DNA from: an uncultured bacterium
Lineage (GTDB): Bacteria > Verrucomicrobiota > Kiritimatiellia > RFP12 > UBA1067
Length of the DNA: 36,993 nt
Reading direction: 5' to 3'
Assembly: GCA_902770045.1 (NCBI GenBank)
Contig: CACXRO010000009.1
Span: 1 to 36,993, forward strand
The notes beneath the pieces are model-generated. The model ran no database searches, was not told the DNA's origin, and was given only the letters and a program-made list of their open reading frames with translations. Shown here piece by piece: positions 4,763-30,565 of this stretch. Each line of letters opens with the position of its first letter. Within the stretch, counting starts at the first letter, position 1. Position numbers and translations under genes: made by a program.

Positions 4763-7700
4763 TCACTCCATCATCGAGGAAGGGATGAAGCACGAGGCGA
4801 GGGCGTGGTCGCGCACGATGCGCACAGAGACGCCGATGTCGCGGCCGCGGAAGACCTTGAACGCCTCGGCCCAGGCGCCCTCCAGCCGCACGGTGACGAC
4901 GCCGGCGTCGGGCTGGAAGCGGGTCACCACCATCTCGCGCGGCGAGTAGCGGATGCCGGTGCCGAGCGCCTTGGATACCGCCTCCTTCGCGCACCAGAAC
5001 CGTACGAGCGCCCGCGAGGAGCTGGCGGCCTTGGCGGCGAGCTCGAGCTCGTCGGGGGTGAAGACGCCGACGGCGAACTCCTCCGAGAGGTCGCGCGAGA
5101 CCGACTCCACGTCCACCCCCACCCGCGCGTTCGCCGCGGCGACGGCGACCACGAACTGCGAGGTGTGGGCGATGGCGATGTCGAGCTTGGTGGTGAGGAA
5201 CTCGTTCCAGTCGCCGAGCGCATGGGGCTTGCCGGAGTCGTCGGCCCAGATCTGGATGTCGGCGTCGGACCAGCGGGCCTGGTAGAAGTCCTTGAGGAAC
5301 CTCCTTACCGCCTCCTTGGCCGCGATGCGCCCGAAGAGCCACTCCGTCCGCCGCGACACCGAGCCGGTCATCTCCTGGAAGTCCTTGCGCTCGGAGCCGC
5401 AGAGCACCAGCCGCGATACCATGCGCAGCCAGAGCTCCTCGTTGCGCTCGAAGATCTGGTAGGGAACGTCGGTCACGAACGCGGAGGCGACGTCGGTCGC
5501 GGGCGAGCCGAGCTGGTCGGGGTCGAGCGGGGCGGAGAGGTAGGTCATCGCCGGCTGCAGCACCAGCTCGCGGTATTCGCGCGGGATGCGCTCGGTGAGC
5601 TCCTCCCAGCCGGAGAACGCCGCGAGCTCATTGCCGTTGCCGTCCGTCATCGTGATGTCGCAGAGCTGGCTCTTCGGCGTCACTCCGGTGAGGCGCAGGT
5701 AGCAGTTGAGGCGCGAGCCCTCCTTGGGAAGTCCGCCGGAGAACACCAGCCGCCGCAGGCGGAACGGGAAGGAGAACGCGCCGGAGAGCCGCTCGTGGCT
5801 GCGCCATAGCGCGAAGCCGCTGACCACGGTCTGCATCAGGAGCGGATCCACCATCCACAGCGGGAAGCGGGTGAAGACGACGTTGTCCGCGACCGGCGGC
5901 ACGACGACCTCGTAGTCGATGCCGGACTCGCTCCAGGCGGAGACGAAGGCGATGCCGCGCAGGCGGCGGCCGCAGCTGAGTCGCTGGGGGTAGATGTCGC
6001 GACCAGACCAGTGCACCGAGCGCGGACGCGACAGCGGCGGCGGCGAGGCGGGGCGCGCCTCCGGCGGCGCGTCGGCGAGGACGACCGTCGCCTCCATCAC
6101 CGGCCAGGTGTAGGCGGAGTTCGGCTTGTCGTCGCGGATCTGCACCTTCACCGCGAACTCGCCGGGGTCGGCGGAGGATATCCGCTCGGCGCGGACGAAG
6201 AGCCTGAGCTCCCCCTTCTCGAAGGACACCATGCGCCGGCAGGTGAAGTCCTCGATCCGCCGCAGCGTGCGGTTGGGGGCGACGAGGCTGGCGGTCTCGG
6301 CCATCACCTCCGCCCCGACCGGCAGCGTCAGCAGCACCAGCCCCTTGAGGTTGGGGTCGGAATAGCTCAGCTGGCTCGTGCCCAGGGCGAAGTCGCCGAG
6401 GAACGGCAGCTCGGAGAGGCGGAACACCTTGGTGATCTCGACGGAGACTCCGGGGCTTGCGTCCACGGTGTCGGCGTCGGAGACGAGCGGGTTCATCGCG
6501 CCGAAGTCGAACTGGCGCTGGCGCCGCGCCTGCTGGGCGATCGCCGCGGCGCGCTGCGCGGCCTTGGCGCCGCGCCCCTTTGGCTCGGCGAGGAACGACG
6601 ACCCCGCGAGCGCCGCGCCGTCGGTGAGCAGCGTCAGCCGCGGGAAGAGGCGCGAAAGGCGCATCTCGGACGCGTGACGCACCTCGAGCGAAAGCGCGGA
6701 GTCGAAGTCGAGCTTCTTCGCGTGGCGGCGCTCGAAGAGCCGGGTGAGGTCCATCTCCGCGCCCAGCGACGCGAGGTAGCCGAGCGCGTGCTGCAGCTGC
6801 ATGGTGCCGGTGCGGTGGATGGAGTCGAGCGCGACCGCCGCGTGCTCCTCGCCGCGCAGCGTGTCGGCGACGGCGGCGGACATCAGCCCGCGCGGGCCGA
6901 CCTCAAGGAAGACGCGGTAGCCGTCGGCGTGCATGCGGCGGACGGTCTCCGCGAACCTCACCGGCTGCGCCCAGCGGGAAGCCGCCTCCTCGCGGGCGCG
7001 CCGGAGGCGCGACGGCGCGCGGTCGGCGGTGGCGCAGGAGTAGACCTCGAGCTGGGCGTCGTGGCGCATGCGGCGGTCGGTGAACTTGCGGATCGCCGGC
7101 ACCAGCCGCGAGCAGAGCGGGGTGTTGAACGGGCGGTTCAGCTCCAGCGCCACCGCCCTCACGCCGGCGGCGGCGAAGGCGGCGAGCGCCTCGTCCTTGA
7201 AGTCAAGCGCCACCGCGTAAGTCTTCTGGCGCGGCGAGAAGTCCACTACCAGCGCAAATCGCGCCGGCGGGAAGTTCGCCACGATGGGGTCGATCTCGCC
7301 GGGGTGGCGCATCAGCACGGTCACCATCGCCACTTCCGGGAGGCCGCCGTGGTTGACCGCGCGGTCGACGATCGAGTAGATGTCGCGGATCATCTCCACC
7401 CTGTCGGCGCGGGACGGATTCGCGCCCGCGTAGCCGGCGCGCGTCATCGCCGCCAGGTCGCCGCCGGCGAAGCCGACGACCCCGTCGGGCGTGACGCCGA
7501 CGATCTTCATCAGCCGGGTGAGCGCGTCGCAGCCGGCGTAGGTGGAGACGAGCGCCTGCGCATAGGCGCCGGACGAGAAGATGTCCGCGTCGTGGCGGTA
7601 GTACGGCGCAGGCGGGAAGATGAAGGACGAGGGGGTGAACTCGTTGTTGCCGGAAAGCGCCTCCTCCAGCTCGTCGAACGCCTGCCTGCACTCGGGGTAC

Positions 7701-8062
7701 CTGACCGCGATGTCGCGGAGCATGTCGGGGTAGAACGAGAGGACCCCGGGGTAGACGAAGGCGAGCTTGCCGCAGCCCTCCCCGAGCATCCGGTCGCGCG
7801 AGAAGTAGGTGCCGCTCTTGTCCCGGATCCGCCGCGTCGCGCCGGAGGCGATCCGGCTGCGGGCCGAGACGAGCCGCGCGCGGAGCGAGGCGACGTCCGC
7901 GGCGATTACCGCGAGCCGCGCCGGTCCGCGGGTGAGCGAGCAGGTATAGGCGACGTCGAGGAACGGGACGTCGGGGACGCGGTCGAGGAACGCGACCAGC
8001 CGGGCGATCTCCGCCAGCAGCGCCGCCTCGTCGGCGGCAGAGACTACCACCAGCTCCGTCAT
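4763..8062 (-). CDS. PKS/PUFA-synthase-like AT-DH-DH protein with C-terminal phosphopantetheinyl transferase; AT and DH sites substituted
   Basis: 1099 residues. Residues 1-98 are the KS-AT linker. An acyltransferase fold spans about 99-420 (KLAFVYPG; VFLEVGPRGLM near 384-394), but its GHSxGE motif reads GFAGGD at 197-202, with nucleophile Ser changed to Ala199 and His to Phe198. The second catalytic His position (AFHSP) reads PFNTP, Asn313. A double-hotdog dehydratase pair follows (about 540-870). Its HxxxGxxxxP motif is replaced by FALGTSQLSY (Phe558), and the second half keeps a DP motif (VDPLLMQ). The C-terminal phosphopantetheinyl transferase (about 930-1070) keeps GVDVE near 982 and FWCAKEAVSK near 1022, so it should be able to prime carrier proteins. 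No carrier protein or ketoreductase is present. The ATG at 8062 overlaps the KS stop (ATGA). Likely an accessory or scaffold subunit of a PfaC/PksE-like synthase; the product is unknown. Confidence 0.85.
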   Translation of the reverse strand: MTELVVVSAADEAALLAEIARLVAFLDRVPDVPFLDVAYTCSLTRGPARLAVIAADVASLRARLVSARSRIASGATRRIRDKSGTYFSRDRMLGEGCGKLAFVYPGVLSFYPDMLRDIAVRYPECRQAFDELEEALSGNNEFTPSSFIFPPAPYYRHDADIFSSGAYAQALVSTYAGCDALTRLMKIVGVTPDGVVGFAGGDLAAMTRAGYAGANPSRADRVEMIRDIYSIVDRAVNHGGLPEVAMVTVLMRHPGEIDPIVANFPPARFALVVDFSPRQKTYAVALDFKDEALAAFAAAGVRAVALELNRPFNTPLCSRLVPAIRKFTDRRMRHDAQLEVYSCATADRAPSRLRRAREEAASRWAQPVRFAETVRRMHADGYRVFLEVGPRGLMSAAVADTLRGEEHAAVALDSIHRTGTMQLQHALGYLASLGAEMDLTRLFERRHAKKLDFDSALSLEVRHASEMRLSRLFPRLTLLTDGAALAGSSFLAEPKGRGAKAAQRAAAIAQQARRQRQFDFGAMNPLVSDADTVDASPGVSVEITKVFRLSELPFLGDFALGTSQLSYSDPNLKGLVLLTLPVGAEVMAETASLVAPNRTLRRIEDFTCRRMVSFEKGELRLFVRAERISSADPGEFAVKVQIRDDKPNSAYTWPVMEATVVLADAPPEARPASPPPLSRPRSVHWSGRDIYPQRLSCGRRLRGIAFVSAWSESGIDYEVVVPPVADNVVFTRFPLWMVDPLLMQTVVSGFALWRSHERLSGAFSFPFRLRRLVFSGGLPKEGSRLNCYLRLTGVTPKSQLCDITMTDGNGNELAAFSGWEELTERIPREYRELVLQPAMTYLSAPLDPDQLGSPATDVASAFVTDVPYQIFERNEELWLRMVSRLVLCGSERKDFQEMTGSVSRRTEWLFGRIAAKEAVRRFLKDFYQARWSDADIQIWADDSGKPHALGDWNEFLTTKLDIAIAHTSQFVVAVAAANARVGVDVESVSRDLSEEFAVGVFTPDELELAAKAASSSRALVRFWCAKEAVSKALGTGIRYSPREMVVTRFQPDAGVVTVRLEGAWAEAFKVFRGRDIGVSVRIVRDHALASCFIPSSMME

Positions 8063-9480
8063 GCGCGGTCCTCCGGCTCCTCCTCGAGCACCACCACGGC
8101 GGAACGCCCGGCCACGGACGTGGTCCCCACCGGATTGAGCGCGTCGAAGTTCGCGCCCATCACCACCGCGCGGCGCGGCGACGAGCTGTCGCCGGTGATC
8201 CACGGCCGCACCGCGTCGAGCAGGTACGCGCTCGAGGCGAGGCTCGAGACCGACTCCGCCGGACGCTCCGGCGGCACCTGCGGCGGCAGCACGCGGTGAC
8301 GGAGCGCCAGCACCGCCTTGGCGACGCCGGCGGACATCGCCGCGCGCAGCGTGTGGCCGATGTTGCCCTTCACCGAGCCGACGCCGACGAGCGCGCCGCC
8401 GGGACGGTGCTCGCCCCAGACCCTGGCAATCGCATCGAGCTCGCGCGCCTCCGCCGCGGCGACGCCGGAGCCATCCGCCTCCACGAGCCCGATCGAGCGC
8501 GGCGGAATGCCGGCGCCCTCGGTCGCCTCCCGGAGAAGCGCCGACGGGTCGTCTTCGGGACAGTGTCCCAGCGCCACCGACCTGACGAGCGCGTAGATGC
8601 GGTCGCGGTCGCGCAGCGCGTCGGAGCGGCGCTTGAGGACGAAGAACGCACCGCCTTCGCCGGGCAGGGTGCCGTCTGGATCGCGCGAAAAAGGCGTAAG
8701 TTCAGTCCGCCGCGAAAAGTCGACCTCGCCCGAGAGACCCTCGATGTAGGCGCATGAGAGCGGCGGCGTGAGCGCGCCGGCAAGCGCGACGTCCGCCCGG
8801 CCGGAAGCGAGGTCGTCCATCGCGTCGGCGATCGTCGCCGCGCCGGAGAGCAGGCCTGCGTCCATGATCGTCGCCGAGCCGGCGAACGAGCATTCGCGAG
8901 CGATCCAGGAGACGAAGCGGTAGCCGGTGCCGAGCAGGAACGAGGCGGCGTCGGGAAGCGGCAGCGACTCCACGAGCTTCTCCTTCACCGCGTCCATAGC
9001 CTCCTCGGGCGCGCTCGGGAAGAACCGCCTGATCACCTCCATCGTCTGGTCGAGGAACGAGGTGTGCTGGAGCCAGTTGACCGTCGAGGCGTTGAACGGC
9101 GGCGCGTAGCCGAGACGCACGGTGCCGCGGACGGGGTCGGGCGAATGCGGCTTCATCGAGGCGTCGCAGAGCGCGTCGAAGGCGAGCTGGGTGGCGAAGT
9201 ACAGGTCCTGGTTCTCGCCGATGTTCACCTGGCGCGGGAAGTTCTGCATCGCCGGGACGCACGAGAAGAGGTCGCCGAGCTGCCCGATGCGCTGCGGGTA
9301 CGGCCGGTCGAAGAAGTTCTTCCTGCCGACCGGCAGCTCCGCCTCTGGTCCGGGCTGGGTGAGCATCACGCGCTGGCCGAGGATCGCGTTCCAGAACGCG
9401 CCGGGGCCGGGGCATCCCGCGAAGCGGCAGGACATCCCGACAATCGCGATCGGATCGCTATGGCTTTGCACCGCGGCCAC
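8059..9480 (-). CDS. Beta-ketoacyl synthase-like protein lacking the active-site cysteine (chain-length-factor-like)
   Basis: 473 residues with a complete thiolase-fold KS outline: DPIAIVGMSCRFAGCPGP at the N-terminus, LTPFSRDPDGTLPGEGGAFFVLKR in the middle, and GSVKGNIGHTLRAA near 370-381. The active-site loop that should read DTACSSS reads MDAGLLS, which puts Gly209 where the nucleophilic Cys belongs. The first catalytic His (VEAHGTGT) is Asp336 in VEADGSGV. Only the second His (His376) remains. Condensation is therefore not expected. This is how chain-length factors and KS-like partners in type II PKS and PUFA synthases look, though those usually carry Gln at the Cys site. The start is GTG at 9480, 7 nt after the esterase stop, with no strong Shine-Dalgarno. 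The next gene begins at its stop codon (ATGA), so the two products probably form one complex. Confidence 0.85.
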   Translation of the reverse strand: MAAVQSHSDPIAIVGMSCRFAGCPGPGAFWNAILGQRVMLTQPGPEAELPVGRKNFFDRPYPQRIGQLGDLFSCVPAMQNFPRQVNIGENQDLYFATQLAFDALCDASMKPHSPDPVRGTVRLGYAPPFNASTVNWLQHTSFLDQTMEVIRRFFPSAPEEAMDAVKEKLVESLPLPDAASFLLGTGYRFVSWIARECSFAGSATIMDAGLLSGAATIADAMDDLASGRADVALAGALTPPLSCAYIEGLSGEVDFSRRTELTPFSRDPDGTLPGEGGAFFVLKRRSDALRDRDRIYALVRSVALGHCPEDDPSALLREATEGAGIPPRSIGLVEADGSGVAAAEARELDAIARVWGEHRPGGALVGVGSVKGNIGHTLRAAMSAGVAKAVLALRHRVLPPQVPPERPAESVSSLASSAYLLDAVRPWITGDSSSPRRAVVMGANFDALNPVGTTSVAGRSAVVVLEEEPEDRA

Positions 9481-9487
9481 AGGCAGC

Positions 9488-11068
9488 CTACTTGAGGGAA
9501 ATCGTGAACGGGCCGAGCGGGAGCGACGCCTGGTTGTACATGACGCCCATGGTGCGGTCCTTGCCGAGGTATCGCGCCATGACCGGCTCCTTCACCTTCT
9601 CGCTCCTGAGGCTGAGCTGCGGGTGGTCGACGAGACCGAGCGTCTGCCAGGGCTTGAACGACTTGCCGCAGTCGACGAGCTCAGCCGCCTCCCAGACGCC
9701 GTTGGTGCCGGCCACCTCGAACGGCGCGCCGAGCGACATGTCGCGGTTGTAGACGTACCAGGTCTGGACATGGTCGAAAGTGACCGTCGCCACGTCGCCG
9801 GAGACGGAGAGCGACTTCGCCGTCGGAGAGCAGTCCTCGGGGATGTCGAAGCCGTAGTCGCGCTTGAGCGCGTGGATGAGGAGGCGCCGCGCCACGGTCT
9901 CCTTGTCGTTGGGGTGGATGTCGTCGAAGTTGCCGACGTCCGCCGTCACCGCGATCGCCGCGTTCGGCTCCTCGGCCGCGAACTTGTCCTGCGCCATGCA
10001 CATGCCCATCCAGTTCGTCTTCCACGGCGCGAGCTGGGCGAAGTAGAGCTTGAGCCCGGGGTTCTCGAACACCCGCGACCAGCCGTTGTATAGCGCGTGC
10101 ATCTTGGCGCAGTAGAGCTCGCTCTCGGAGTTGTTGTGGCAGCCCTGGTACCAGATCATGCCGCGCATCGCCATCGGCGCGTAGTCCCACACCATCGCGT
10201 TGAAGAGCGCGGTGGGCTGCTGGAACTGGGAGCCGATGACCCCCTTGGCACAGTCCTTGGTCCAGTCCTTGCCGAACTTCGGCACCCATTCCGCCGTCGC
10301 CTTGATCGACGGGTCGCAGCCTTCGTAGCCCTCGCGCGGCGTCCACGCGTCGATGTTGGTGCCGCCGATCGAGGAGTCGATTATGCCGACCGGCACCCCG
10401 AGCGCGACGTGGAGCTCGCGCGCGTAGTACCATGCCACCGCCGAAGGGAGCTGCCAATGGCAGTCGTCCACCTTCAACTGGAAGGACTCCGGCTCGAACC
10501 TGAGCCACTTCGCCTGGAGCGGATTGCGCCCAGGCGTGCCGTAGACGCGCGGCGTCTTCACGAAGCGGACGAGCGGCATGTGGGTCATCGCGGTCATCAT
10601 CGCGCCCTTGCCGTCGCGGTAGCGGCTGTTGCCGGGGTGCCAGATCGGGCACTCCATGTTGCTCTGGCCCGAGGCGAACCACACCTCGCCGACGAGGACG
10701 TCCTTCACCTCCACCGAGTCCACTGTCGAATCGAACAGGAAGCCTTTATTGAACTCGGTCACCTTCATCGTGCGGCTTTCCGACGATGCCTCCATCGGGT
10801 CGAGGTCAACCCGCCACTTGCCGTCAAGACCAACATCGACGACCTTCGTCTGACCGGCGAACTCAACCTTGACCTTCTTTGGCGTAATAGAGCCCTTCGG
10901 CTTAATGAAAACCAGCGGTCCCGGGACCACCTTGCCCCAGACCGGCACCTTCATGCCGCGCTGCAGCACTGCGCCGTGGGTGAACGGCGCGCCCATTTCG
11001 ACTGCCGCCAGGGCGGACCCTGCGCAGACGGCGGCAACCGCCGCCAGAAGATTTTTCTTATTCATCAT
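9488..11068 (-). CDS. Secreted sialate O-acetylesterase family protein (SGNH/SASA)
   Basis: A 526-residue exported esterase, expected to remove O-acetyl groups from sialic acids or other acetylated glycans. A signal peptide is clear (basic MMNKKN, then a hydrophobic stretch ending in SALA). The catalytic Ser block is WFASGQSNMECPI. The central VGIIDSSIGGTNIDAW block is typical of the family, and the Asp-His end of the triad is in DDIHPNDKE. The conserved WYQGE block reads WYQGC here, a substitution near the active site whose effect I cannot judge. The Shine-Dalgarno AAGGAG sits 5 nt before the first of two ATGs. It lies 7 nt upstream of the KS-like gene and could be cotranscribed with it, although the functions have no obvious link. 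GH20 nearby supports a mucin-glycan diet. Confidence 0.9.
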   Translation of the reverse strand: MMNKKNLLAAVAAVCAGSALAAVEMGAPFTHGAVLQRGMKVPVWGKVVPGPLVFIKPKGSITPKKVKVEFAGQTKVVDVGLDGKWRVDLDPMEASSESRTMKVTEFNKGFLFDSTVDSVEVKDVLVGEVWFASGQSNMECPIWHPGNSRYRDGKGAMMTAMTHMPLVRFVKTPRVYGTPGRNPLQAKWLRFEPESFQLKVDDCHWQLPSAVAWYYARELHVALGVPVGIIDSSIGGTNIDAWTPREGYEGCDPSIKATAEWVPKFGKDWTKDCAKGVIGSQFQQPTALFNAMVWDYAPMAMRGMIWYQGCHNNSESELYCAKMHALYNGWSRVFENPGLKLYFAQLAPWKTNWMGMCMAQDKFAAEEPNAAIAVTADVGNFDDIHPNDKETVARRLLIHALKRDYGFDIPEDCSPTAKSLSVSGDVATVTFDHVQTWYVYNRDMSLGAPFEVAGTNGVWEAAELVDCGKSFKPWQTLGLVDHPQLSLRSEKVKEPVMARYLGKDRTMGVMYNQASLPLGPFTISLK

Positions 11069-29785: not shown

Positions 29786-30565
29786 ATGAAGAAGTGGAAC
29801 GTCGACCGCATCAGGAAGTCTAAGGGCGTGGAGAAGCTCGGCTGCTGCACCGCCTACGACGCCTGCTTTGCCCGCCTCGCGGACGAGGCGGGCGTGCCGA
29901 TCATCCTCGTCGGCGACTCGCTGGGGATGAACGCCCTCGGCTACGAGACGACGCTGCCGGTGGAGATGTCCGACACGCTGGCCGCGGTCGGCGCGGTCGC
30001 GCGGGCGGCCAAGGAGGCGCTGGTGGTCGGCGACATGCCGTTCGGCTCCTACCAGTGCGGAGAGGACGACGCCATGCGCAACGCCGTCGCGGTAATCAAG
30101 GCCGGCGCAGACGCGGTCAAGCTCGAGGGCGGCGCGTCCGTCGCCCCGCTCATCCGCCGGCTGACCACCGCCGGGATCCCGGTGCTGGCGCACGTCGGGA
30201 TGACGCCGCAGAGCGTCAACTCCTACGGCGGCTTCAAGAAGCAGGGCAAGACCCGCGAGGCGGCAGACCAGGTGCTGGCGGACGCGAAGGCGGTCGAGGC
30301 GGCCGGGGCGTTTGCGGTGACGCTCGAGTGCATTCCCTCGGAGCTGGCGGCGGAGATAACCGCGGCGCTGAAGATCGTCACCGTCGGCATCGGCGCCGGC
30401 CCAGTCTGCGACGCGCAGTGGCTGGTGATGCACGACCTCCTCGGGCTCAACGAGAAGGTCCCGTCGTTCGTGAAGAAGTACGCCGACCTCGCCGCGGTGG
30501 TGCGCGGCGCATTCGCGTCCTACGTCCGCGAAGTCTCCGCCGGGACCTTCCCGCCGGCCGAGTAG
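29786..30565 (+). CDS. panB: 3-methyl-2-oxobutanoate hydroxymethyltransferase
   Basis: First step of pantothenate synthesis: it adds a hydroxymethyl group from methylene-THF to alpha-ketoisovalerate. 259 residues, normal size. Visible: LGCCTAYDACFARLADEAGVPIILVGDSLGM, GYETTLPV, the metal-binding VGDMPFGSYQ, AVKLEGG, HVGMTPQSVNSYGGFKKQGK, LECIPSELA, and GIGAGPVCDAQWLVMHDLLGL. GGAGGA lies 9 nt before the ATG. It starts 30 nt after tRNA-Ile2 with no separate promoter seen, so it may be read from the tRNA promoter and freed by tRNA processing. No other pan gene is in the window. Pantothenate is the precursor of the phosphopantetheine used by the nearby PPTase. Confidence 0.96.
   Translation: MKKWNVDRIRKSKGVEKLGCCTAYDACFARLADEAGVPIILVGDSLGMNALGYETTLPVEMSDTLAAVGAVARAAKEALVVGDMPFGSYQCGEDDAMRNAVAVIKAGADAVKLEGGASVAPLIRRLTTAGIPVLAHVGMTPQSVNSYGGFKKQGKTREAADQVLADAKAVEAAGAFAVTLECIPSELAAEITAALKIVTVGIGAGPVCDAQWLVMHDLLGLNEKVPSFVKKYADLAAVVRGAFASYVREVSAGTFPPAE

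Follow-up and report, generated by a model that had tools for sequence, protein, structure and literature searches.

The KS and AT-DH-PPTase gene pair described here probably encodes the housekeeping holo-ACP synthase of its lineage, derived from a polyketide synthase (PKS) subunit pair that lost its synthase activities. The pair was found in a window of 36,993 nt (the whole stretch of DNA analysed) from an uncultured bacterium of the Kiritimatiellia. Its assignment as a holo-ACP synthase is strongly suggested by exclusivity, as judged from sequence comparison.

Gene organization and domain content

The features of the locus are listed in Table 1. The stop codon of the KS gene and the ATG of the fusion gene overlap by 4 nt in the window, and the same overlap was found in most relatives. 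The start of the fusion gene is this ATG at 8062, not the longer GTG at 8203. The fusion protein consists of a linker (approximately residues 1-95), a pseudo-AT (96-450), a pseudo-DH (515-850), and a phosphopantetheinyl transferase (PPTase, 851-1099). The esterase-like gene (PF03629) lies on the same strand as the KS gene, and the two may be co-transcribed; panB occupies its place in other genera.

Table 1. Features of the gene pair and neighbouring genes in the window
Feature	Position	Strand	Remarks
KS-like pseudo-ketosynthase gene	8059..9480	(-)	473 aa, GTG start
Linker-AT-DH-PPTase fusion gene	4763..8062	(-)	1099 aa, ATG start
Sfp-type PPTase domain	4766..5512	(-)	residues 851-1099 of fusion, PF01648
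panB, ketopantoate hydroxymethyltransferase (CoA precursor pathway)	29786..30565	(+)	
Sialate/carbohydrate esterase-like gene (PF03629)	9488-11068	(-)	7 nt upstream of KS gene

A profile search of each domain was run with Pfam. The KS protein matched the KS N and C domains with 65 and 79 bits (8062-9480). The fusion protein (4766-8062) matched the KS-AT linker, AT (37 bits), and ACPS (63 bits); PS-DH scored 21 bits, just under the cut-off. The PF01648 match of the PPTase reached 62.6 bits against a cut-off of 25, and its score with the AcpS equivalog TIGR00516 was 46.7 bits, under the curated cut-off of 59.8. No ACP or KR domain, as expected in the system of a type I PKS or PUFA synthase, was found by Pfam in either protein. 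The NCBIfam models nearest to the KS and AT are PfaA and PKS_plus_SDR. The KS was modelled by AlphaFold with high confidence (pLDDT 91.4, pTM 0.92), and the model matches structures of type I PKS ketosynthases and KS-AT regions. In the model of the fusion protein, the domains are confident (pLDDT 87.5) and their mutual packing is uncertain (pTM 0.56).

Active-site residues and selection

To locate the substituted columns, the proteins were aligned with family members and with intact homologues from PKS clusters of the class. In the KS of the window, the Cys column is Gly209 and the first His column is Asp336, which leaves no active Cys-His-His triad; Lys371 and the second His, His376, are kept. 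The GHSxGE motif of the AT reads G-F198-A199-G-G-D and the second His is Asn313, so that the Ser-His pair is lost. The DH has Phe558 in place of its His and keeps Asp739, and the His-Asp pair is incomplete. The PPTase is intact at H966 (motif IAHT), at D984 and E986 (GVDVE), and at W1023, K1026, E1027, and K1031 (FWCAKEAVSK). An earlier note on this DNA had reported the KS nucleophile, the AT Ser, both AT His residues, and the DH His to be replaced next to intact PPTase motifs. The alignment to intact homologues bears out each of these residues, and the columns had been correctly placed, with no misalignment.

Conservation was counted over 76 fusion sequences and 58 KS sequences of the f1 set (f1-f6 are anonymous working labels for the families of the window's order, and G numbers likewise label genomes). 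The seven PPTase motif residues are invariant (76/76). No KS sequence has the Cys (0/58), and no fusion sequence has the second His of the AT or the His of the DH (0/76 each). The AT Ser occurs in 17 of the 76 sequences and the DH Asp in only 11, with the window copy among the keepers. The KS Lys and second His are kept in 56/58 and 57/58 sequences, respectively.

Compared with the two closest relatives, dN/dS was 0.05-0.14 in the KS, AT, and DH and 0.12-0.17 in the PPTase, with the highest value (0.22) in the linker; the estimates rest on the closest relatives, synonymous divergence being saturated for several others. Selection is strong on dead and live domains alike, in agreement with the well-kept folds and lack of decay described earlier, and the relatives are also substituted while under strong selection. 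A single in-frame TGA was seen inside the KS or AT-DH-PPTase matches of G122, G124, G023, and G128, which may be a sequencing error, a match extending past the stop, or a real lesion.

Distribution within the order

The fusion protein is present in 107 of the 115 genomes of the window's family, across all 19 genera, and in 29/29 of its high-quality genomes. Within the order, the pair occurs in nearly all f1-f5 genomes and in none of f6. Among genomes of at least 85% completeness, the KS was found in 74/76 of f1-f5 and 0/12 of f6. The KS and fusion genes are linked at 56 of the 68 loci with enough upstream sequence and not linked at the other 12. The pseudo-KS lies apart from the AT-DH-PPTase gene in G064 (contig C13), G053 (C117), and G100 (C75), where it is 66-69% identical to that of the window. 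Its retention despite this separation indicates that the KS is kept independently of operon linkage. The KS was not found in G028 (90% complete), although the fusion is present there.

The lost residues differ between the families. Both KS and AT residues are lost in f1 and f3. In f2 and f5, the AT GHSxGE motif and His are kept and the KS Cys is Gly. The f4 members G130 and G131 retain the KS Cys and both His residues, and their AT Ser is Gly. At the sequence level, different activities seem to have been lost independently while a single one was retained; partial activity may persist in part of f4 (KS triad) and in f2 and f5 (AT residues). The upstream genes in f3-f5 were checked for an ACP or KR partner, and glycosyltransferases, an SDR in one f5 genome, and nothing consistent were found.

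The KS gene is immediately preceded by panB in eight f1 genera (in one only as a fragment at the contig start), in both f2 genomes (one genus), and in one f5 genome, which makes ten genera overall. In the window, panB is about 20 kb from the pair, and the window's genus has lost the linkage. The adjacency fits a unit for CoA-dependent ACP activation; it may also be a simple ancestral neighbourhood.

PPTase complement and fatty-acid synthesis

The fused PPTase is the sole PF01648 protein found in the window's genome and in 40 of the 42 family genomes with a match, a result that rests on draft MAGs and on PF01648, so that an unrelated or very divergent PPTase would escape. Across the order, nearly every genome has a single PF01648 protein, fused in f1-f5 and stand-alone in f6 (208-334 aa). 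In the rest of the class, the one PPTase of a genome is almost always a stand-alone protein. The f6 proteins carry a W(S/A/T)xKE motif and fall into a separate group with long branches. Extra PF01648 matches were found in G011, G104, and G115. Family or order members that depart from the one-PPTase rule also have PKS genes beyond the pair, one of them a 2527-aa frame, as well as their additional PPTases (G011:C15; C87 and C176 of G115).

An ACP is present in 32/32 high-completeness genomes of the family, the window's genome included, whose AcpP is standard and carries the DSL site. FabF is present in relatives and absent from the window's 85%-complete genome, because the contig ends before it. 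The 99%-identical G046 has FabF about 37 kb past the contig end, and a genome devoid of fatty-acid synthesis, as the single KS found might indicate, was rejected. The fused PPTase is the sole PPTase found in a cell with type II fatty-acid synthesis, as expected of a housekeeping holo-ACP synthase. Since it stands alone in the genome, the ordinary AcpP can, as far as seen, only be activated by it. From this sole-PPTase status and the presence of AcpP, we infer that the fused PPTase transfers phosphopantetheine to the carrier protein.

Evolutionary origin

Intact homologues of the pair occur in PKS clusters. In G235, which belongs to another order of the Kiritimatiellia, the KS, AT, DH, and PPTase residues are all intact in a KS and an AT-DH-PPTase protein, which lie near a 2535-aa NMO-KS-AT-ACP-KR protein (contig C14). 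This genome also has a separate stand-alone PPTase. This PKS cluster, whose KS-AT-ACP-KR protein carries the NMO domain at its N-terminus, likely makes an uncharacterised lipid or polyketide. G174 carries an intact KS with an AT-DH protein without PPTase. In the phylum sample outside the order, the matches were only PKS-cluster-like. In the PPTase tree, the f1-f5 fused PPTases group together, with those of PKS clusters as neighbours (support 89/68, long branches), which lends moderate support to a PKS origin of the fused PPTase. The new fusion of an ancestral stand-alone PPTase is disfavoured, since the fused PPTases group with the PKS-cluster ones and not with the stand-alone ones of f6 (moderate support).

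The ancestor of f1-f5 would have retained a KS plus AT-DH-PPTase two-gene subunit of a type I, PUFA-like polyketide synthase. Its C-terminal Sfp-type PPTase would have become the sole PPTase and would load 4'-phosphopantetheine, taken from CoA, onto the AcpP used in type II fatty-acid synthesis. The catalytic residues of the KS, AT, and DH would then have been lost piecemeal, differently in different families. The KS and AT-DH would remain together as a folded complex, which may serve to present or recognise the carrier protein, to hold the PPTase active, or both. Docking of the carrier protein by the dead domains is a reasonable guess from the part that KS and AT domains play in synthases, where they handled the ACP of the PKS itself; they might also have a gating role. 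Both the activity on AcpP and the direction of evolution are inferred from the comparisons above.

Alternative explanations

The earlier note had regarded the pair as a chain-length-factor-like, non-catalytic module of a PUFA or PKS megasynthase with an active partner elsewhere in the genome. Chain-length factors are indeed dead KSs, and the intact pair of G235 lies near a large PKS protein. However, KS genes beyond FabF and the pseudo-KS were not found in G046, G064, G068, G094, G033, and others, several of which are 88-97% complete, and a single ACP was detectable in G059 and G068. A hidden active partner was rejected on these grounds: the dead KS of several near-complete genomes has no active KS of the same system to pair with. 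Being part of the core genes of f1-f5, the pair also differs from a secondary-metabolite cluster. Since no further KS was found in genomes as much as 97% complete, such a module is largely refuted already and most improbable. The other suggestion of that note, a repurposed acyl-binding complex, came closer; the key fact, which was out of its view, is that the PPTase is the sole one found in the genome and would thus have to serve the ordinary AcpP. Synthase chemistry might instead persist via relocated residues, with an acyl product made together with stand-alone FAS enzymes. The retained KS Lys and second His, the AT Ser in 17/76 sequences, and the intact AT motifs of f2 and f5 and KS motifs of part of f4 speak for it, but no sequence of the f1 set has the KS nucleophile, the second AT His, or the DH His, and the pair has no ACP or KR domain, which makes this very unlikely. 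A decaying pseudogene, for which only the loss of catalytic residues speaks, is already refuted and has next to no probability: there are no stops, the length is near-constant, dN/dS is about 0.05-0.17, and nearly the whole family (107/115) carries the fusion.

A further possibility refines the holo-ACP synthase reading. The dead KS, AT, and DH might bind acyl-ACP, malonyl-CoA, or another acyl-CoA and act as a gate on the PPTase; ACP activation would then follow fatty-acid or CoA supply, and the panB linkage would reflect this control. This is consistent with the strong purifying selection on the dead domains, the KS kept as a separate gene, the panB operon in several families, and the KS Lys and second His, conserved in 56 and 57 of 58 sequences. 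However, plain scaffolding explains the conservation equally well, and panB is no longer linked in the window's genus; gating of this kind is conceivable but rather unlikely. It is an equally tentative proposal that AcpS was replaced in most families of the order by a pseudo-PKS complex whose dead KS, AT, and DH domains sense acyl-ACP or acyl-CoA and control ACP activation, which would link CoA synthesis (panB operon) to fatty-acid synthesis.

Significance and comparison with known systems

If the pair is the housekeeping holo-ACP synthase, a secondary-metabolite megasynthase would have lost its chemistry and been retained as a core enzyme of housekeeping, and the lineages would show this loss at different stages. 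A group of uncultured gut bacteria would then have an unusual, probably essential route to holo-ACP, in a pair found across gut and environmental members of the Kiritimatiellae. The reason for strong selection on large dead catalytic domains also becomes testable.

A description of such a unit was not found in the open-access literature searched, and the known systems resemble it in part. The enediyne PKSE synthases are iterative type I PKSs with a KS-AT-ACP-KR-DH-PPTase arrangement. They share the C-terminal PPTase fused after the DH; unlike them, the pair has no ACP or KR, its KS is a gene of its own, the catalytic residues are lost, and it belongs to the core set of several families. The chain-length factors of type II PKSs and PUFA synthases have a KS fold without the nucleophilic Cys, as does the KS of the pair, whereas here an active KS partner of the same system is missing and the pseudo-KS goes with the PPTase protein. 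Fungal type I FAS (PDB 4v58, 7q5s) is among the best PDB sequence matches of the window's PPTase domain and likewise has a PPTase fused C-terminally to a synthase subunit. The fungal enzyme, however, is an active synthase whose PPTase acts on the ACP of the synthase itself, whereas in the pair everything but the PPTase is dead and free AcpP is the presumed target. The PUFA and secondary-lipid synthases PfaA-E (Shulse and Allen 2011, PMC3098273) are similar in that the KS and AT are nearest to the PfaA and PKS_plus_SDR models and the intact homologue lies near an NMO-KS-AT-ACP-KR protein; they differ in that the pair has no complete synthase active site and no partner in the genome. The Sfp-type PPTase of Synechocystis was described as its only known PPTase gene (PMC5605751). 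As with such stand-alone sole Sfp-type PPTases, one enzyme apparently takes the place of AcpS in primary metabolism; unlike these free PPTases, it forms here the C-terminus of a dead PKS subunit of 1100 aa, whose KS partner is dead as well.
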